A stretch of 59,841 nt of DNA from Bacteroidetes bacterium GWB2_32_14 (GTDB taxonomy: Bacteria; Bacteroidota; Bacteroidia; Bacteroidales; UBA12077): the NCBI GenBank assembly GCA_001768235.1, contig MENK01000004.1, positions 1-59,841 on the forward strand, written 5' to 3'. The notes beneath the pieces are model-generated. The model had not been told where the DNA came from, did no database searches, and saw nothing but the letters and a program-made list of their open reading frames with translations. Shown in pieces: positions 29,830 to 37,688 of this stretch. Position numbers and translations under genes: made by a program. Numbering within the stretch: the first letter of the stretch is position 1; the number at the start of each line of letters is the position of its first letter.

Positions 29830-29956
29830 AATAAAAATGTCTTTCCAAAATTCTTTCCAAAATAAAACAAATATTTTTTAAAAAATTAAACTAACCTGAA
29901 AATTCAGAATATTTATACTTTCTAAATTAGTCGGTGGTTATTGAACACCTTTATTT

Positions 29957-30202
29957 ATGATTGTTTTGGAGATTTTTAATTTGAATCGTGTTGCCCTGAT
30001 TGCTCATAAAGAAATAGAAGATATGTTTTGGGAAGCAAAGAATAAAGCCGCCGCAGCTAAATTTCTTTACCTCGATGAGAAACTCCCTGTCAGGGAAATA
30101 TTGAAATCGCTGTTAGCGGTTCGTTGTTTGATGTGTTTCTTAAATGTCAACTACTTTCTTGACAGTATTCCAATTTCTTGTCGTAATGTTTTTCCCGAAT
30201 AG
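29957..30202 (+). pseudogene. Possible truncated ORF at the edge of the cassette island
   Basis: An 81-codon plus-strand frame. The first 50 residues look protein-like (EIEDMFWEAKNKAAAAKF, then YLDEKLPVREIL). The frame then crosses a CTGTTAGCGG motif at 30110-30119 and runs antisense into the DUF1697 gene, where the composition is no longer protein-like. It could be the 5' remnant of a gene cut by arrival of the island, or chance. I do not recognise the family. Confidence 0.25.
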
Positions 30203-30673
30203 CTTTTCCAGGTCGTCCATTCCTTTTCGGGTGTTCGTGGCCGTAAGGTCCAAAACACTCAAAATTGTTTTATTTTGGATGGAAATGATTTTAAACGTTT
30301 TGTCCTCTGAAAAATATGGTACGGTTAACTCGATTTCAGGAGTGTTTTTTAAAAATGAAACATAGAGACGGATATCTTTATGGACATTTATTGTTACAAA
30401 AGGGTTTTCGTTTACCAAGTCAGAGATTTCCTTTCGGGTTCTTAAAATCACAGGAACAGGAAATCCAAACGATTGTGAAAGAAAACGTTCTATCTTGTGT
30501 TCCAGTTCCTGGATATTTGTCTGTTTTGCTTCAAACACAAAGTTTCCAGTGTTCAACAAAGTTCTTACATTATCACAACCTATTTCAGCCAATTTATCAC
30601 GTAGTTCTGCCATTGGCACTTTATGGTGTCCACCAACATTAATACCCCTGAGAAATCCTGTTAATGTCATCAT
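30140..30673 (-). CDS. DUF1697 family protein
   Basis: A 177-residue cytoplasmic protein of the DUF1697 family. It shows the typical start TLTGFLRGINVGGHHKVPM, then ELRDKLAEIGCDNVRTLLNTGN, and a C-terminal NTRKGMDDLEKLFGKNITTRNW. The open frame extends 44 codons upstream through a cassette repeat, so the start is set at the first of two adjacent ATGs (30673/30670). The function of the family is unknown; it often sits among mobile accessory genes. Here it is the most distal recognised cargo of a minus-strand cassette series. Confidence 0.8.
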   Translation of the reverse strand: MMTLTGFLRGINVGGHHKVPMAELRDKLAEIGCDNVRTLLNTGNFVFEAKQTNIQELEHKIERFLSQSFGFPVPVILRTRKEISDLVNENPFVTINVHKDIRLYVSFLKNTPEIELTVPYFSEDKTFKIISIQNKTILSVLDLTATNTRKGMDDLEKLFGKNITTRNWNTVKKVVDI

Positions 30674-30717
30674 ACAATCATTTTTATCAAATAAGCATAA
30701 GTTTGTGTCTAAAATAT

Positions 30718-30846
30718 AACGATCCCGGCATAGGAAAAGTGTGGGAATTTTGCCCGGTGTTTCTGTTCGCCCATTATAAAGTTTAAAGATAGTTAAAAAT
30801 GCCAAAAAAACCGCTGAACCCCGCCTAAAATGTGAGCCAATGCTAG
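30718..30846 (-). repeat. Cassette-boundary repeat B
   Basis: About 130 bp between DUF1697 and HepT. It carries the family core CGCCCATTATAAAGTTTAAA and the GAACCCCGCCTAAAATGTGA segment also seen, with changes, in the repeats at 32894, 33826 and 34728. The arms are imperfectly complementary. It belongs to the attC-like series of the island. Confidence 0.55.
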
Positions 30847-30860
30847 GTTTTGTGCCGCTT

Positions 30861-31211
30861 TTAGCTTTCGATTTCTAAAATGTCTTTTATTTGGCTTAGA
30901 TTTTCAGGAAGATAATTTGATACAATATCCCAAACAATTTCATAGTCAACACCAAAATATTCATGAATAGCTTTGTTTCTCATTCTATACATTTCATCCC
31001 AAGGTACAGAAGAATATTTTTCTCTGATATTTATTGGAATTTTATTTGAAGCTTCCCCAATAATTTCAAGGTTTCTAATAACTGCATCAACTGTCTTGTC
31101 ATCGTTTTTAAAGTCATCAAAATTATACGAATTTGTATAATTTAGTATTTTTGATATTGATTCAACAATATCTTCGATAAAATGTATATAAGTCCTTTCA
31201 GATTTTTTCAC
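30861..31211 (-). CDS. HepT-like ribonuclease toxin
   Basis: A 116-residue all-helical HEPN protein. The catalytic Rx4-6H motif is R78-NKAI-H83 with the following Tyr (RNKAIHEYFG). HepT is an RNase whose activity is blocked by adenylylation by its MntA partner. The start is a GTG overlapping the MntA stop by 4 bp, so translation is coupled and the partner is made first. It is one cargo unit of the island. Confidence 0.85.
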   Translation of the reverse strand: MKKSERTYIHFIEDIVESISKILNYTNSYNFDDFKNDDKTVDAVIRNLEIIGEASNKIPINIREKYSSVPWDEMYRMRNKAIHEYFGVDYEIVWDIVSNYLPENLSQIKDILEIES

Positions 31212-31498
31212 AAAAATAATGTTTGATTTATAATTCTATCTTTTAGTTGTTTTTTCAAAGCTTTCCTTGTCACAAGGTCCACTTTTCTATTAAAAATATC
31301 TTCCAGGTACTTTTCAAGTGTAAAAAATTTCCACCCAATGGGTTTTTCAAATTCAACCAGAATGTCTATATCACTATCTTCATTTTGCTCATTATCAGAA
31401 TAAGAACCAAACAAACCAATTTCCTTCACATTATAATCTCTGTATAAGACTGGTTTCAATTCAGTTAATTTGCTTAATATTTCATTCTTTGTCAACAT
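31208..31498 (-). CDS. MntA-like nucleotidyltransferase antitoxin
   Basis: A 96-residue minimal nucleotidyltransferase with GLFGSYSDNEQNEDSDIDIL: the G31-S32 motif and the two metal-binding aspartates D43 and D45. It adenylylates HepT at the Tyr of its active motif, neutralising the toxin (type VII system). The start at 31498 is preferred; a longer frame reads through a cassette repeat. It forms an operon with HepT. Confidence 0.85.
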   Translation of the reverse strand: MLTKNEILSKLTELKPVLYRDYNVKEIGLFGSYSDNEQNEDSDIDILVEFEKPIGWKFFTLEKYLEDIFNRKVDLVTRKALKKQLKDRIINQTLFL

Positions 31499-31561
31499 GT
31501 GAGCAATATACAAAAAAATGTTTATATAAGTATTTTTTGTCCGAAAAAAGGGGGCATTAAA

Positions 31562-31631
31562 CCTAACGATGGCGGTATGAAACGCTCGAAAACCCACTGA
31601 AACCGACATGTTTTATGACCGCTTGTTAGCG
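31562..31631 (-). repeat. Cassette-boundary repeat C, 70 bp palindrome
   Basis: The left edge CCTAACGATGGCGGTATGAA and the right edge ATGACCGCTTGTTAGCGG are imperfect complements: CTAAC with GGCGGT against ACCGC with GTTAG. The size and CTAAC/GTTAG ends resemble integron attC sites, although the bases after GTT do not fit the canonical RRRY. Confidence 0.6.
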
Positions 31632-31686
31632 GTAGTTCTTATTTGTTCAGTGTTTTTATTTCGTTTGTAATACATTCCTGCTATTC

Positions 31687-32133
31687 CTATAAATCCTTTT
31701 TAAGATAAATCATATCAACAAGTTGTATGTCGCCATCGAAAATAGGGTGGTCGTAATTGTCTGTAAAAAAATTCTTTACCCGATATGATTTTTCAAATCC
31801 ACAACTTTCATAAAACGACAAGATTGTCGGCGTTTCGCCTGTCCCGACAAGCATTGTTTTGTAGTCGTTTTTGTAGAAATCAAAAATGAAATTTATCAAT
31901 GCTCTGCCGTACCCTTTGCCTTGATATTTCTCGTATGTCGCTATGTTTTTCAACTCGCAGGTTTCGCTATTTATCGGCACTACAACGCAAACACTTTTCA
32001 AATCATAGTCATATAAAGCAAACAAGTCTCCACTCGGCAAATACTTGTCAATCATATTTTCCTGCTCGTCTGCCAACAACAATAAGTCAAGGAACTGTTT
32101 CTTATTTTCGATAATTTTTTCTATTTTCAACAT
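31687..32133 (-). CDS. GNAT family N-acetyltransferase
   Basis: A 148-residue single GNAT domain. The acetyl-CoA pyrophosphate loop is [15 protein letters not shown], preceded by the strand [11 protein letters not shown] and followed by [20 protein letters not shown]. The acceptor is unknown. It is a lone cargo gene in the island, with repeat C downstream. About 285 bp of AT-rich sequence separates it from the upstream NTF2-like gene. Confidence 0.85.
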
Positions 32134-32339
32134 ATCTCTGTTGTTTCCTAATTTGTCAAGTTTTATTTTCCGTAGTATCGCCCTGGCTAAGCGGAATATG
32201 TATTAAAAATTAAAAAATGCTAAGCGTCATTTACTCGCTCTCGCTTATGAGAAAAGTTGTAATGGCGCTTTCTTTATTCGGGCAACTTGCCTTGTCGGCA
32301 GGCAGGTTTGTAATTGCCATTATTTTAGAAAAACTAAAA

Positions 32340-32360
32340 AGCTGAATTGCAAATTCAGCT
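32340..32360 (-). terminator. Terminator after the NTF2-like gene
   Basis: On the minus strand AGCTGAATT, a TGC loop and AATTCAGCT form a perfect 9-bp stem followed by TTTTTAGTTTTT. The rest of 32134-32418 holds no gene. It contains a CCTGCCTGCC-type palindrome (about 32286-32307) but no clear boundary repeat of the series. Confidence 0.7.
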
Positions 32361-32418
32361 TAGTACAGGGAATGTTAATATTTTATTCATAAACAATCAA
32401 AAAGTTGAGAAAGTGAAA

Positions 32419-32811
32419 TTAATCAACAGAGGGTTTAGTCAACGACCAATGACTGTGGATGATTTTCCACTCGTTATTTTCTTCAAGCCGATACACTTCT
32501 GTACAATTCTCTTTCCAGAGCGTTTCGCCTGAGTATGAATGCAGGTTGTAGGTTAGAACGGCCATAGTACTGGTTGATTGTACAACGGGATTTATCATTT
32601 CGAATTTATCCATTTTTACTTTTCCCCGCATGCTTTCATACAACTCTTTTACCTTGTCCCAACCGTCAAGTCGCCTTTCATGTGCAGGGTCGAAATAAGT
32701 AAAGTCCTTTGAATAAAGTTCGAGATAGGGGGATGGATTACCATTGTGCCACGCATCAAGAGCCGCTGTCTCCAAAGCAATGATTGTTTCTGTAATAGTA
32801 AGCTTATCCAT
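32419..32811 (-). CDS. NTF2-like (SnoaL/DUF4440-type) protein
   Basis: A 130-residue cone-shaped NTF2-like fold. It has an N-terminal helix with LETAALDAWHNGN, then YLELYSKDFTYFDPA, and C-terminal antiparallel strands ending EWKIIHSHWS. Such proteins include polyketide cyclases, isomerases and binding proteins; the residues visible do not pick one. It is a single-gene cargo unit with its own terminator, with a cassette repeat upstream. Confidence 0.75.
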   Translation of the reverse strand: MDKLTITETIIALETAALDAWHNGNPSPYLELYSKDFTYFDPAHERRLDGWDKVKELYESMRGKVKMDKFEMINPVVQSTSTMAVLTYNLHSYSGETLWKENCTEVYRLEENNEWKIIHSHWSLTKPSVD

Positions 32812-32893
32812 GATATTTTATATTGAATTGATAATTATTTTGTTTTGAGATTAATATTGCACAATTTGTCATTTAGGGCGCATTTTGCATGAT

Positions 32894-33029
32894 GCACAAC
32901 GGTCTTTGGCCACGTTTTGTGCGGGTTTTCGCCATTCATAGCTATCCGTTAATAAAGTTTAAAAGTAGTAAAAATGTTTGAGTATTCCTTCACCCCGCAT
33001 AAAATGTGAAGCGCTGTTTTAGCCTGTGC
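32894..33029 (-). repeat. Cassette-boundary repeat E
   Basis: About 136 bp with ends GCACAACGG and CCTGTGC. Inner arms TTTTGTGCGGGTTTTCGCC and CACCCCGCATAAAATGTGA pair imperfectly. The core TAATAAAGTTTAAAAGTAGT is shared with repeats B and F. Confidence 0.55.
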
Positions 33030-33049
33030 CAAAACCCCATCAAGAGTTT

Positions 33050-33220
33050 TTATTTGCCTGTCAATACCTTTTTGGCAGTCCTTTTTAGTTTTAGCGATTT
33101 CTGTTTCTTCAATTCCTTTTTCTTTCTAAAGAATTCACTTAAAGCTTTTTCTTCAGAACTTGACAAAGGTTCTTGACTTCCAATAAAATCTACATCCAGT
33201 TCTTTTTTCCTTGTTTTCAT
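33050..33220 (-). CDS. Small basic 56-residue protein, partner of the GNAT-like gene
   Basis: This short gene encodes 56 residues starting MKTRKKELDVDFIGSQEPLS and ending in a very basic tail (KKKELKKQKSLKLKRTAKK). Its ATG shares one base with the TAA of the upstream gene, so the two are translationally coupled. The acidic/aliphatic head DVDFIGSQ and lysine-rich tail suggest a binding partner or antitoxin-like peptide. I do not recognise a named family. Confidence that it is real comes from the tight coupling and sensible composition. Confidence 0.6.
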   Translation of the reverse strand: MKTRKKELDVDFIGSQEPLSSSEEKALSEFFRKKKELKKQKSLKLKRTAKKVLTGK

Positions 33221-33753
33221 TAATTATTGGTTTTAAAGTATTTGTCAATCAGTTTCAGTGCAGCTTGTGTTTCAATTATCATTAATCTTCCACCAAAATG
33301 GAATGCACCCAAAGTTTCTTCATAGTGTTTAATAAGTTGGGTTTTTGCAATAAATGCTAAATTTCCGTCGTGTCCTCTTTGAAATGATAGTTTACATGCA
33401 AACGCAACTAAATTTCCTGGTACACCTGCATACATTTTTATTTTTCCTTTGTTAAATGGTGCGCTTTCAATTAAATGCATATAAACATGGTCAGATTTAA
33501 CTTGTACACTTAATAAACCTTGAATAATATTCGGATTATTTACAATGGTAAGTTTATAAACTTCTCTTTCAGGTTGTTTAAATTCAGTCAACCAATTAAA
33601 AACCCAACCATTTTTCTTTGTAGTTACTTTAAGGTCAGCTTGTGTAACAATAGAAACTTCAGTCGGGAAACTATCTCCTGTTACAATATTTTCAATTGAA
33701 TGGGTAAGTTTGTCAACAATGAAGTCTAATTCTATTTCTTTCCTTTTGGCCAT
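33220..33753 (-). CDS. GNAT-fold-like protein of unknown function
   Basis: A 177-residue protein starting MAKRKEIELDFIVDKLTHS. The second half follows acetyltransferase topology: HLIESAPFNKGK, then YAGVPGNLVAFACKLSFQRG, which aligns with the acetyl-CoA-binding loop and helix. FIAKTQLIKHYEETLGA comes near the end. The acetyl-CoA loop itself (Q/RxxGxG/A) is degenerate, so catalysis is uncertain. Together with the coupled 56-residue gene it forms a two-gene cargo unit bracketed by repeats, reminiscent of toxin-antitoxin modules; this is inference. Confidence 0.7.
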   Translation of the reverse strand: MAKRKEIELDFIVDKLTHSIENIVTGDSFPTEVSIVTQADLKVTTKKNGWVFNWLTEFKQPEREVYKLTIVNNPNIIQGLLSVQVKSDHVYMHLIESAPFNKGKIKMYAGVPGNLVAFACKLSFQRGHDGNLAFIAKTQLIKHYEETLGAFHFGGRLMIIETQAALKLIDKYFKTNN

Positions 33754-33825
33754 ACTACAAATATACTAAAAAAGCTTTAAGTTTTCCCAAAAAAGTAGTG
33801 TTTCATGGCTATTTTTGGTATTGGC

Positions 33826-33960
33826 TACAATGGTCCGCAGCTAGGTTTTGTGCGGGTTTTCGCCCGGCGTTCCAATCAGCCCATTGTAAAGTTTAAAAAT
33901 AGTAAAAAATGTTTGCAAAACAAGAAACCCCGCATGTTTTGTGATGCCGGGCTGGGTATA
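33826..33960 (-). repeat. Cassette-boundary repeat F
   Basis: About 135 bp. Inner arms GGTTTTGTGCGGGTTTTCGC and AAACCCCGCATGTTTTGTGA pair imperfectly. The core CAGCCCATTGTAAAGTTTAA is shared with repeats B and G. It lies between HigA and the GNAT-like gene. Confidence 0.6.
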
Positions 33961-33971
33961 GTTGCATAGTC

Positions 33972-34286
33972 CTAAGCTATTTCCAAATTTGTATCTTGGT
34001 TAAATTCAATAGTCATTTTCACTTTAGCTTTCAATGCGTCAAAAACTTTCAAAATAGTTGAGAACCTAACATCTTTTGCATTTGTTTCAATTTTCGAGAT
34101 TTGTGCTTTCTGCACACCAACCAATTCTCCCAATTGTTCTTGTGTCAAATGTTGTTCCTTTCTGGCCTTTTTAATCATCTCACCCATGATGTCAAGCTTC
34201 AATTCAAATTCGAATTGCTCTCTTTCTTTTGAACCTTTTTTCCCAACGTACTGGTCAGTCAATTCTTCTAATGTATATTTTTTCAT
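33972..34286 (-). CDS. HigA-type antitoxin, XRE-family helix-turn-helix
   Basis: A 104-residue DNA-binding protein. The helix-turn-helix is KEQHLTQEQLGELVGVQKA followed by QISKIETN, in residues about 38-70. It is expected to bind and neutralise the toxin encoded just upstream and to repress their shared promoter. It begins 5 bp after the toxin stop. The toxin-first order is the HigBA arrangement. Confidence 0.85.
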   Translation of the reverse strand: MKKYTLEELTDQYVGKKGSKEREQFEFELKLDIMGEMIKKARKEQHLTQEQLGELVGVQKAQISKIETNAKDVRFSTILKVFDALKAKVKMTIEFNQDTNLEIA

Positions 34287-34291
34287 TTCTT

Positions 34292-34627
34292 TTAGTTTTT
34301 ATGTTTTAAATAGTCTTTTCTAATTTGCTCTGCTCTATCAATCTCATTCTTTGGTGTCTTCTGTGTTTTCTTAATGAATCCATGAGTGGCAACAACTAAA
34401 GTAGCTTTTGAGTCGTCTTTGTCCCAAAATGCTAATAGCCTGATTTGTCTTGTCAGGTATTTTGTTCTGAATTCCCATATTTCGCCAGATAATTTTTTAA
34501 ATAATTCAGGGTCATTTACCTCCCTGGATTTCCAAATATTAAAAAATACCTTTTCTCGTGTTTTACTGTCAAGTTTGTCTAAGAACTCTTTTGCAAATTC
34601 AAGAAAGACTATTGAATATTTAATCAT
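34292..34627 (-). CDS. HigB/RelE-type toxin (phage Gp49-like)
   Basis: A 111-residue RelE-superfamily protein with FAKEFLDKLDSKTREKVFFN, then LSGEIWEFRTKYLTRQIRLL and the terminal strand ATLVVATHGFIKKTQKTP. This matches the Gp49/HigB branch of ribosome-dependent mRNA endonucleases. The final KKTQKTPKNEIDRAE helix is typical of this branch. It precedes HigA in one operon. Confidence 0.85.
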   Translation of the reverse strand: MIKYSIVFLEFAKEFLDKLDSKTREKVFFNIWKSREVNDPELFKKLSGEIWEFRTKYLTRQIRLLAFWDKDDSKATLVVATHGFIKKTQKTPKNEIDRAEQIRKDYLKHKN

Positions 34628-34727
34628 TTAGTTTTTTACAAAGATACAAATATTTCCTTAAAAGGAAACAAGTGTCGAAAAAAGTTTGGAATAGCGTCAT
34701 TATTTTTCGAAGTCACATGCAATTATA

Positions 34728-34859
34728 CCCAACGGTCTTGCGGTACGAAGCGGTGGGGATTTTACCCAGCGTTCCAGTCCGCCCATTGAAAAAGTAAAGT
34801 TAAATTTAAAATGTCAAAAAATCGCTGAAACCCGCATTTTTTCTGATGCCTTGTTAGGG
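34728..34859 (-). repeat. Cassette-boundary repeat G
   Basis: About 132 bp with ends CCCAACGGTC and CTTGTTAGGG. It carries CCAGCGTTCCAGTCCGCCCA and GAAACCCGCATTTTTTCTGA, closely similar to repeats B and F. It lies between the MazF-like gene and HigB. Confidence 0.6.
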
Positions 34860-34896
34860 GCTGGCGTTTATTATATCTTTTTACATTTAAAGTTGG

Positions 34897-35274
34897 TTAA
34901 CGATCCCAAATTGGCGCATTCAACAAAATCGGTAGTTCGTCAGGCATATTGCTCTCAATAAATCTAATTCCTTCAGGTGACAATTTTCCAATTATTTTAT
35001 CTTCATTGATCCAATCATTCAATTTTATAAAAGAGTTGTCAATTACTAAGTGGCTATTTCTAAATTGAAAACTATATGGTTTGTTATTACTATCAACAGG
35101 AAGGAAATGAGATGATTGCATTAACAAATTTTTACCAGTAGGTTTTGAACTCAGAATACAAGCTTTAAATCTATCATTATCGATTGATTCAATAAAAACA
35201 ATTGGATGAAAATGTCTTTCTGTGTCTTTAGCGAAAAAAATGTCTCCTTTTGTCATAATCATATTTTTTTTCAA
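34897..35274 (-). CDS. MazF/PemK-like fold protein, orphan
   Basis: A 125-residue protein. The N-terminal half (TKGDIFFAKDTERHFHPIVF, then RFKACILSSKPTGKN) has the small-barrel pattern of PemK/MazF proteins: a KGDIFF strand, a HPxVF strand and a strand ending in LSS. No antitoxin gene is adjacent. Residues needed for RNA cleavage cannot be assigned with certainty. A methionine at residue 5 or 7 is an alternative start. It is a single-gene cargo unit between repeats G and H. Confidence 0.5.
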   Translation of the reverse strand: MKKNMIMTKGDIFFAKDTERHFHPIVFIESIDNDRFKACILSSKPTGKNLLMQSSHFLPVDSNNKPYSFQFRNSHLVIDNSFIKLNDWINEDKIIGKLSPEGIRFIESNMPDELPILLNAPIWDR

Positions 35275-35306
35275 TCTTTTGTGTGCTGTGTGTTTTTGCG
35301 CTTATC

Positions 35307-35437
35307 CCTAACGTATCGCGTATTTGTTGTGTTTGGGAGTTTGAAACTACTTTCTTATCCCACGATAGTAAAATTACCAAAAAGCGTTAAGAACTTCAAA
35401 TGCGTCATCAGCCCAAATACAATAAATACGCTGTTAG
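35307..35437 (-). repeat. Cassette-boundary repeat H
   Basis: The left arm CTAACGTATCGCGTATTTGT plus GTTTGGG and the right arm CCCAAATACAATAAATACGC plus TGTTAG are imperfect complements over about 28 bp, separated by about 70 bp. It shares the CTAAC/GTTAG ends with repeat C. It lies directly after the prenyltransferase-like gene, marking the upstream limit of the repeat series. Confidence 0.65.
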
Positions 35438-35453
35438 CAGCAGTTGAATTCAA

Positions 35454-36101
35454 TTAACCGCCAAATCGTCTTTTTCTGTATAGAAATTTTGCAAATACAT
35501 TTTCCATATCTTTAATTGTTAAGTCTGGAAAGTATTTACGGTAAAAAAATAATTCCGCAAAAGAAGATTGTAGCGGTAAAAAATCACTAAGCCGCCCTAT
35601 TACACCTGTTCTAATGATTAAATCTAAATCTTCTTTTACCCAAAAACCGTCCTTAATGCTATGAGGATTTGTTTTGAAAGAATTATATATTTCTTCCACT
35701 GGGTCATATGCTATTAATATGTTTATAATAAGATCAGTATTCGTTTTTGTACTTTCAACTAAACCGGTAATTGCTCTCACAAAATCTTCGTTTTTTATGT
35801 GATAAAGATTACCCACAACGTTTACTTTAAATTTGTATTTTTCTAAAAGTGCAGGTAATAGTTGTGAAGATAAATAGACCTGAGAAGATAAAAATTCATT
35901 TATGTTTGCCTCGCTTCTATTTTGTATGTTTTTCAAACTGCTCAAATATGCACTCACACTTTTTACATTGTTTGAAAAGGAAAAATCTATAACTTCCGTT
36001 AATTTTTCCATGGAAATGAAATATCCTTTTACTGAGCTAATTTTATTTTTTTTAGCCCATCTTCTTGAACCATCTGGAATAATACCTATATGATTAATCA
36101 T
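35454..36101 (-). CDS. Divergent cis-prenyltransferase (UppS-like)
   Basis: A 215-residue relative of undecaprenyl diphosphate synthase. The catalytic aspartate D10 is in HIGIIPDGSRRWAKKN, where the canonical motif is MDGNGRWA, so the asparagine is lost but Asp, Arg and Trp remain. The C-terminal substrate motif reads DLIIRTGVIGRLSDFLPLQS, then FAELFF, keeping RTG, RLS and the metal-binding Glu. The protein is shorter than housekeeping UppS (about 240-250). It starts 5 bp after the TIR-like gene and is almost certainly co-transcribed with it, which argues for a specialised rather than cell-wall role. Confidence 0.8.
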   Translation of the reverse strand: MINHIGIIPDGSRRWAKKNKISSVKGYFISMEKLTEVIDFSFSNNVKSVSAYLSSLKNIQNRSEANINEFLSSQVYLSSQLLPALLEKYKFKVNVVGNLYHIKNEDFVRAITGLVESTKTNTDLIINILIAYDPVEEIYNSFKTNPHSIKDGFWVKEDLDLIIRTGVIGRLSDFLPLQSSFAELFFYRKYFPDLTIKDMENVFAKFLYRKRRFGG

Positions 36102-36106
36102 TGCAT

Positions 36107-37144
36107 TTAATTTTTATTATTTATTTCAGTAACAGATATTTTCTCACAATTCTCATGAAAATATTTCAAATGGTTATCCCAATAATTTTGCATCATCTCT
36201 CCTCTCATATGCACACAAAAATTAATTGTACTGGTAGGAGACAGAATTATTCCTTCAATTGCTCTGTCTTGATTTTTAAATTTGAATAATAAGACGGGAG
36301 CAAGATTTTCGTTTTTCTTTGACTTGCGAAATGGTAAAATTTTTCTATTCTCATACAAATTATGCAAGGTTTCTGTATGTTTATTTATCAAAGAAGTATC
36401 GTTTTTTATTTCACCTTTTGTTTTTTCCATATTGGTTACATGGTAGAGTTTTTTGCTTTTTTCCATACAACTAAAAATATTGTTTATAAATTCTTCCTCA
36501 TCCTTATCTCCTTGTTCATAGCCCAAGATTAAAGAACTGGTCTTTTGAAAAAGGATAATCTCATCAATAATATCTATTTCTTTCATTATAGAATTTGCAA
36601 TTTTATAGTGTTCTCTTGGCGTAGAATAATAGCCAAGTATTGTATTAACTTTGCTTGGTTTTACTATTTCTATTGCAGATTTTATTTTTAAGCAAGCGTC
36701 TTGAACAATTTCTTCTAATTTTTCATTATCAGAACCCTTTGTTTCTTTGTATTCATATTGTGCTAAGGTAACTCCTAGAACATCAGACGGAATGATAAAT
36801 TTTTCACAATCTGACGGACTAACAACAAAAACTTTATCTCTGTTCAACTTCCCTGTAAATAGTCCATATTCAAAAATTACATTTGAACGAACCTCAAAAA
36901 ATGCTTCTTCACCAATCATTTTTATATCGTCAGGCGAAAAGATGAATATTGCAAAATCATATTTTTCATCTGCCGCCATAAATAATGTTTCAATAAAAGT
37001 TTTGTTAAGACTAAATACATTTTGATTCCAAACTTTTATATGAAAACCTTTTTTAGGAGAATTCATTAAGGAATTCAATGTCGCTTGAACTGCATTTGCA
37101 ATATTCAAAGATTGTGTTGACGAACCGATAAAAATTTTCTTCAT
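36107..37144 (-). CDS. TIR-like nucleotide-binding protein with C-terminal sensor-like domain
   Basis: A 345-residue protein. Residues 1-150 form a TIR-like domain of the predicted nucleotide-binding class (PF10137, as in CBASS Cap12). It has MKKIFIGSSTQSLNIANAVQ, FAIFIFSPDD, and SNVIFEYGLFTGKLNRDKVF with the likely catalytic Glu92. Residues about 170-345 form a mixed domain I do not recognise, ending HMRGEMMQNYWDNHLKYF. TIR domains of this class degrade NAD or bind cyclic nucleotides in anti-phage defence. No cyclic-nucleotide synthase lies nearby; the only partner is the UppS-like gene 5 bp downstream. Confidence 0.8.
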   Translation of the reverse strand: MKKIFIGSSTQSLNIANAVQATLNSLMNSPKKGFHIKVWNQNVFSLNKTFIETLFMAADEKYDFAIFIFSPDDIKMIGEEAFFEVRSNVIFEYGLFTGKLNRDKVFVVSPSDCEKFIIPSDVLGVTLAQYEYKETKGSDNEKLEEIVQDACLKIKSAIEIVKPSKVNTILGYYSTPREHYKIANSIMKEIDIIDEIILFQKTSSLILGYEQGDKDEEEFINNIFSCMEKSKKLYHVTNMEKTKGEIKNDTSLINKHTETLHNLYENRKILPFRKSKKNENLAPVLLFKFKNQDRAIEGIILSPTSTINFCVHMRGEMMQNYWDNHLKYFHENCEKISVTEINNKN

Positions 37145-37614
37145 TTTATATATTATTAATTATAGGCAATTTTCTTTATTCTGCCGTAACTCTGTCCTTC
37201 AATTGCAGCCAACTCCTTTATAACATTAGTTTTGTTGTATATCTATGGGTGATAAAATACTATAATAAATTAAGCTTAAAAATAATAAAAATTTACACGA
37301 ATATAAAATATCCATTAGAGCCATATCCTAAATTGCAAATTCGGTACTTCTTTATGTATTCCTGGCATTATCAAGTGTATTTTTTGTAACTTCTTTTGTA
37401 ATTGGCACGAACAATACTAGGCAATCATATTTTACCTTACCAATACAACCTTAAAAAGGAAATCCTGAAATTTTAACATTTCGTTTGTCGCTTTTCTACT
37501 TACGGGTTGTCACTTTTTAACTTACGAACCACAGTAAAAACGGGCTTTTTAGGAACTCTTTTTTATTTTTTCAAGAAAATGAATGTGAACAGATGATAAA
37601 AAGTTATTAACAAA
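37145..37614. other. Gene-free AT-rich region between island and dcw cluster
   Basis: About 470 bp with no credible frame on either strand. It must contain the promoter of the minus-strand TIR operon and the upstream part of the mraZ control region. No CTAAC/GTTAG palindrome of the cassette type was found, so the array appears to end at the TIR operon. A short direct repeat (ACTTACG at about 37498 and 37522) is the only pattern noticed. Confidence 0.5.
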
Positions 37615-37654
37615 GTGGTAAAAAATGGGATAAAGTGGTAGAATGTGGGAAATT
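37615..37654 (+). promoter_or_regulatory. MraZ box: four 10-bp repeats
   Basis: The units GTGGT, ATGGG, GTGGT and GTGGG start at 37615, 37625, 37635 and 37645, an exact 10-bp period. MraZ binds tandem TGGG/GTGG repeats upstream of its own gene and regulates the dcw operon. A weak -7-like TATATTTT follows at about 37659. The mraZ start is at 37689. Confidence 0.85.
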
Positions 37655-37688
37655 TTTGTATATTTTTACAAGTTAAATAAGGGTAGTA

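Follow-up and report, generated by a model that had tools for sequence, protein, structure and literature searches.

A TIR-type effector gene paired with a short cis-prenyltransferase-fold gene in a Bacteroidota genome: a rare two-gene module and candidate immune system

In the window analyzed here, a stretch of 59,841 nucleotides from Bacteroidetes bacterium GWB2_32_14 (contig MENK01000004.1), a gene for a TIR-like protein is closely followed by one for a short homologue of UppS, raising the question of what an effector-like protein and a cis-prenyltransferase fold might do together. Both genes lie on the minus strand (35454-37144) and are transcribed in the order effector, then UppS-like: the first (36107..37144) encodes a 345-amino acid effector-like protein and is separated by 5 bp (36102..36106) from the second (35454..36101), which encodes a 215-amino acid short cis-prenyltransferase-fold protein, the same genes and spacing that the original prediction had described. 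Its assignment of the first protein to the PF10137 type of TIR effectors was likewise borne out, as PF10137, the sole Pfam match, covers residues 3-131 (36752..37138, minus strand; 88.3 bits against a cut-off of 24.7, E 4.9e-25) and the TIR effector models (best E 2.1e-35) and PycTIR models of PADLOC both match. Glu92 (codon 36869-36871), which the prediction had singled out, lies within NVIFEYG and is a candidate catalytic Glu of the TIR-NADase type. Among PDB sequences the effector is closest to CD-NTase-associated protein 12 (Cap12; 9lmq, E 2.6e-20, query residues 3-173), and the NCBIfam Cap12 equivalog models score 110.4 and 85.2 bits, under their 450-bit cut-offs. Hydropathy analysis found no transmembrane stretch in either window protein.

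The surroundings of the pair were defined by comparison with relatives and a Pfam scan. The distance from an acyltransferase gene to mraZ is about 230-273 bp in G673 and G589 (same genus) and G735 (same family), versus 7.86 kb in the window (29830..37688), and none of the window's insert genes was found in the stretches examined of these genomes. As the site is nearly empty in three relatives, the pair belongs to an accessory insert of roughly 7.6 kb. This agrees with the accessory island rich in toxin-antitoxin modules that had been proposed, since the insert holds, by Pfam, a HepT/MNT pair (30861-31609) and a Gp49/HTH pair (33972-34627), together with further small genes. It adjoins mraZ-rsmH-ftsL-ftsI, where the names ftsL and ftsI are our assumption from gene position, and both pair genes have a G+C content of 0.29 versus 0.35 for the following dcw stretch. 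Two other insert proteins, of 177 (33220-33753) and 125 amino acids (34897-35274), lack Pfam matches at E 0.001, and the smaller resembles, by eye, a type II toxin relative. A fourth relative, G490, carries 8.9 kb of other sequence upstream of mraZ, with no acyltransferase gene there, and the site looks like an insertion hotspot in the window's genus; its sequence (L176 1-8870) encodes a radical SAM/SPASM protein, a TPR protein with a DUF2971 match and a MORN-repeat protein. Neither a CD-NTase nor a Pycsar cyclase, both said beforehand to be absent, was found when ten neighbouring proteins were scanned with Pfam, the only nucleotidyltransferase among them being the minimal one (PF01909) beside HepT. 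Toxin-antitoxin-type genes apart, Pfam and PADLOC showed no known defence system next to the pair.

The second protein matches PF01255 over residues 8-214 (profile positions 1-219 of 219; 120.9 bits against a cut-off of 27, E 7.4e-35), while PADLOC gave no match to it at E values up to 1. All of the motifs by which it had been described as a divergent UppS are present on the minus strand, namely DGSRRW, RTG (35604-35612) and RLS (35586-35594), as is Asp10 (codon 36072-36074). The original prediction had left room for a housekeeping role should this be the organism's only UppS; it is not, because a canonical UppS scoring 288.6 bits, versus 118.7 for the pair's copy, is encoded elsewhere in the genome, and a housekeeping function for the UppS-like gene was therefore rejected.

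We then scanned genome contigs, using three aligned short UppS sequences as the query, and took the best 80 of 519 relatives, reading the neighbourhoods in 20 of these 80 loci and screening all loci with a profile of the effector C-terminus. This revealed three loci among the best 80 of 519 in which a gene for a 322-324-amino acid effector lies directly upstream of a short UppS gene; the possibility that the pair is unique to the window genome was thus rejected. The upstream effector genes in L120 (an Oscillospiraceae MAG) and L061 (a Bacteroidales MAG) were found by an ORF search with the window effector, and that in L058 (a Bacillota MAG) by reading the locus. The effector comes first in all four genomes, with a gap of 5 bp in the window and of 15 and 12 bp in L120 and L061, respectively, and an overlap of 11 bp in L058 if its effector start is placed at 1318 by homology. 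As the UppS-like protein led us to all three further cases, the association is conditional on it. Two PF01255 genes, scoring 247-291 and 114-123 bits, occur in each of six locus genomes (L120, L061, L081, L058, L048 and L059). Directly upstream of the L061 effector (806-2109) are a ThsB-type TIR gene (PF08937, E 6.8e-19) and a gene for a 225-amino acid, possibly membrane-bound protein with no Pfam match over the cut-off. Other short UppS genes have different neighbours: in L081 (a Lachnospira MAG) the gene overlaps a DUF4062 gene whose product lacks the shared C-terminus described below, and in L050-L053, L056 and L081 it lies downstream of related GT2 glycosyltransferase genes, several of these loci seemingly being polysaccharide loci.

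What the four effectors have in common is their C-terminal half. A profile built from the three C-termini of L058, L061 and L120, with the window left out, matched the window effector at E 4.4e-11, defining a domain of about residues 165-345 (36110..36652, minus strand; alignments A5 and A7) with an invariant block, IIL.Q.TS.L.LG (36521-36559, minus strand). The same profile had no other match in 5,858 ORFs outside the pair loci and, among TIR relatives, none in L004-L015. Neither Pfam nor the PDB gave a convincing sequence match for this domain, consistent with its original description as an unknown C-terminal domain, nor was there a sequence match to STING or another cyclic-nucleotide receptor, the predicted model of the window effector being of too low quality for a fold comparison; its similarity to Cap12 ends near residue 173-175. 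The N-termini of the L058, L061 and L120 effectors match no convincing Pfam family, PF13271 included. In the predicted fold of the L120 N-terminus (mean pLDDT 66), a Rossmann-like sheet can be aligned to receiver domains, to TIR-STING and to nucleoside deoxyribosyltransferases, and the candidate catalytic Glu lies within (R/D)EC.IA; we infer a TIR-class head that sequence profiles do not show, with the proviso that receiver domains match the fold as well. The original prediction, which uniqueness to this genome would have refuted, is supported in part, by an effector-like first gene, an accessory position and the recurrence of the pair, including in another phylum, through the shared C-terminal domain; the other heads have no convincing PF10137 match. 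Because the three effectors share this domain with the window protein but carry a different N-terminus, the conserved unit, judged from these sequences, consists of a new C-terminal domain and a short UppS, the head being exchangeable.

The unit is sparsely distributed. The C-terminal profile matched none of 248 other genomes from the phylum of L120's genome, none of 196 others from its order (a draw that seems to overlap the phylum draw, as G1183 is in both) and none of 323 other genomes of the window's order. The full window effector has matches in 12 of 394 other genomes of its phylum, none extending beyond residue 193, and a weak match in one of nine further genomes of its genus (E 4.4e-4, residues 58-117). 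When 392 further genomes of the order were searched, two proved to carry a short UppS paralogue that clearly outscores the rest (126 and 114 bits, against 67 for the next), with no TIR gene beside either in the 3.6 kb read, and profile A1 detected no short UppS clear of canonical copies in 394 other genomes of the class. Among mobile elements, the L120 C-terminal domain had no match in plasmids or phages and the four-row C-terminal profile none in viral contigs, where no relative of the window effector or its UppS-like partner was confirmed; plasmid and phage matches of the window and L058 UppS-like proteins were all below 60% identity, and at most 31% among the matches listed. The four-row UppS profile identified eight viral loci, and in five of them (L159 and L161-L164) no effector of the window kind was seen by eye beside the UppS gene. 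In two of these IMG/VR contigs the UppS homologue has canonical motifs (L159 4998-5597 and L161 4980-5648) and lies within an apparent structural gene cluster, and such contigs suggest that phages touch the carrier-lipid pathway; gene 102 of Streptomyces phage Gilgamesh is also a UppS match, at 27% identity. On the reading that we favour, set out below, the pair would be a rare, mobile two-gene module of immune type.

To place the UppS-like partners, a 35-row tree was built in which canonical and archaeal UppS were sampled alongside. The effector partners fall in one group (support 97/88), apart from canonical and archaeal UppS, that also contains nine Bacteroidota DGGRRW proteins, L081, the Chloroflexota proteins L048 and L059 and one Streptomyces biosynthetic protein; in the DGGRRW proteins the R200 and E213 equivalents are replaced. 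The partners from L058, L061 and L120 group as one clade (100/99) and the window copy is placed beside L048/L059 (89/73), while a single clade of all four partners is not rejected (p-AU 0.279). In view of this placement and p-AU value, the module may have acquired its short UppS on a single occasion or repeatedly.

Residues were compared using E. coli UppS as the numbering reference, with L029 omitted from the alignment owing to a stop within the stretch taken; the roles in pocket and catalysis on which our reading relies are those that we take these residues to have in the E. coli enzyme. The equivalents of D26, R30, S71, N74, R77, R194, R200 and S202 are kept in all four effector partners, and His43 is replaced by Tyr in all four, the window copy also having Ser for Asn28. 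The E213 equivalent is Glu in the window copy only, being Thr or Ala in the other three, and the C-terminal RxG is present in the partners from the window and from L120 and absent from those of L061 and L058. In a study of the human complex, RxG contributes to both substrate sites, and NgBR/Nus1 is described as a pseudo-cis-prenyltransferase partnering DHDDS (PMC7573591). The pattern in the partners fits substrate binding that has been kept while catalysis fades, by analogy with the inactive NgBR subunit, and the loss of the E213 equivalent in three of four partners and of RxG in two makes a binding or sensing role likelier than ordinary synthesis. Of the lipid roles that the original prediction offered for the partner, making or sensing a signal or monitoring the carrier lipid, these losses point to binding more than to signal production. 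The window copy, having retained both, may be an active enzyme.

The reading that we rank first, although tentatively, is that of an immune module of two genes and NADase type, in which an isoprenoid-binding, ligand-sensing UppS-like partner would gate the effector. It draws on the order and tight spacing shared by four genomes, on the C-terminal domain common to effectors with varied heads and the match of the window head to the Cap12/PycTIR class, on the separate canonical UppS in all four pair genomes and the low-G+C accessory insert, and on pocket residues that are kept where the E213 equivalent and RxG have been lost. The UppS-like protein would bind an isoprenoid diphosphate, a polyprenyl carrier or, in the manner of NgBR with DHDDS, the host UppS, and would restrain or trigger the effector by way of the C-terminal domain; once infection upsets carrier-lipid or cell-wall metabolism, the TIR head would assemble and hydrolyse NAD+, and the infected cell would halt before phage release. 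We infer NAD+ depletion as the output, isoprenoid or host-UppS binding as the input and defence as the role. Counting against this reading are the possible enzyme activity of the window copy, the other three N-termini, which sequence does not identify as TIR, the conditional nature of the association, the loose grouping of the window UppS with the other partners and the presence of toxin-antitoxin-type genes as the sole known defence-like neighbours by Pfam or PADLOC.

Ranked second, and rather unlikely in our estimate, is an isoprenoid second-messenger system analogous to CBASS, in which the UppS-like enzyme would make a short or modified prenyl diphosphate, or prenylate a small molecule, and the C-terminal domain would be the receptor. 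The window copy would suit such a role, as it keeps every listed equivalent from D26 to S202 as well as E213 and RxG, and cyclolavandulyl diphosphate synthase (5ygj) is among the best PDB matches of the protein (residues 6-215). It resembles this enzyme and the Rv1086-type short-chain cis-prenyltransferases in length and in full-length similarity, and a Streptomyces plasmid relative lies among biosynthetic genes, without an annotated TIR gene nearby in the one record examined. An enzyme making a messenger sits poorly, however, with the missing E213 equivalent and RxG in the other partners and with Tyr for His43 in all four. The third-ranked reading, an unlikely one, is a toxin-antitoxin-like pair serving element maintenance or general stress, in which the UppS-like protein would be a plain, ligand-free inhibitor of the effector; the two-gene layout with near-overlap, the toxin-antitoxin-type neighbours in the insert and the decay of catalytic residues in some partners suit it, but a mere inhibitor would not need the pocket residues that all four partners conserve. 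Least likely, and very improbable, is chance adjacency, with the TIR effector next to a short UppS that serves glycan or lipid metabolism, for although the shared C-terminal domain occurs in just three of the best 80 loci (519 relatives) and the loci listed above have a GT2 glycosyltransferase upstream, the same gene order and C-terminal domain recur at four loci from two phyla, which strains it.

Compared with known systems, the immune-module reading has clear relatives and clear departures. The window head is of the same Pfam class as Cap12 (TIR-STING) of CBASS and PycTIR of Pycsar, which are also its best PDB sequence matches, but the pair differs from CBASS in having no CD-NTase, and from Pycsar in having no nucleotide cyclase, among the ten neighbours scanned, and its similarity to Cap12 stops, as noted, near residue 173-175. 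A 2026 report describes DUF4062 proteins as TIR-like NADases forming the Swarozyc defence system (PMC13174449). The pair is like Swarozyc in combining a TIR-like head with an auxiliary C-terminal domain, and the L081 DUF4062 gene adjoins a short UppS; unlike Swarozyc, the window head is PF10137 rather than DUF4062, L081 alone among L058, L061, L120 and L081 matching PF13271, and the terms prenyl, undecaprenyl and UPPS are not mentioned in the available text of that paper (PMC13174449). To NgBR/Nus1 the UppS-like protein is comparable as a cis-prenyltransferase fold that is possibly inactive and would act as a partner protein (PMC7573591), but it is bacterial, adjoins a TIR effector and has no transmembrane stretch by hydropathy. 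In the open-licence literature, from which subscription papers are mostly missing, no pairing of a TIR protein with a UppS homologue was apparent from title or abstract start among the matches listed. We regard the pair as a candidate variant of TIR-effector immune systems; should the isoprenoid link hold, there is a fair chance that it represents a new class.

Such a class, which we regard as possible but doubtful, would comprise a sensor or signal maker of cis-prenyltransferase fold in place of a nucleotide cyclase, an isoprenoid or carrier-lipid alarm ligand and a new C-terminal receptor domain on interchangeable TIR-class NADase heads. To our knowledge, lipid-carrier metabolism is read by no described defence system. 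If this interpretation is correct, antiviral NADase effectors would be tied to lipid-carrier metabolism, one set of non-housekeeping short UppS homologues would gain a function, and there would be a new receptor-like domain to seek.
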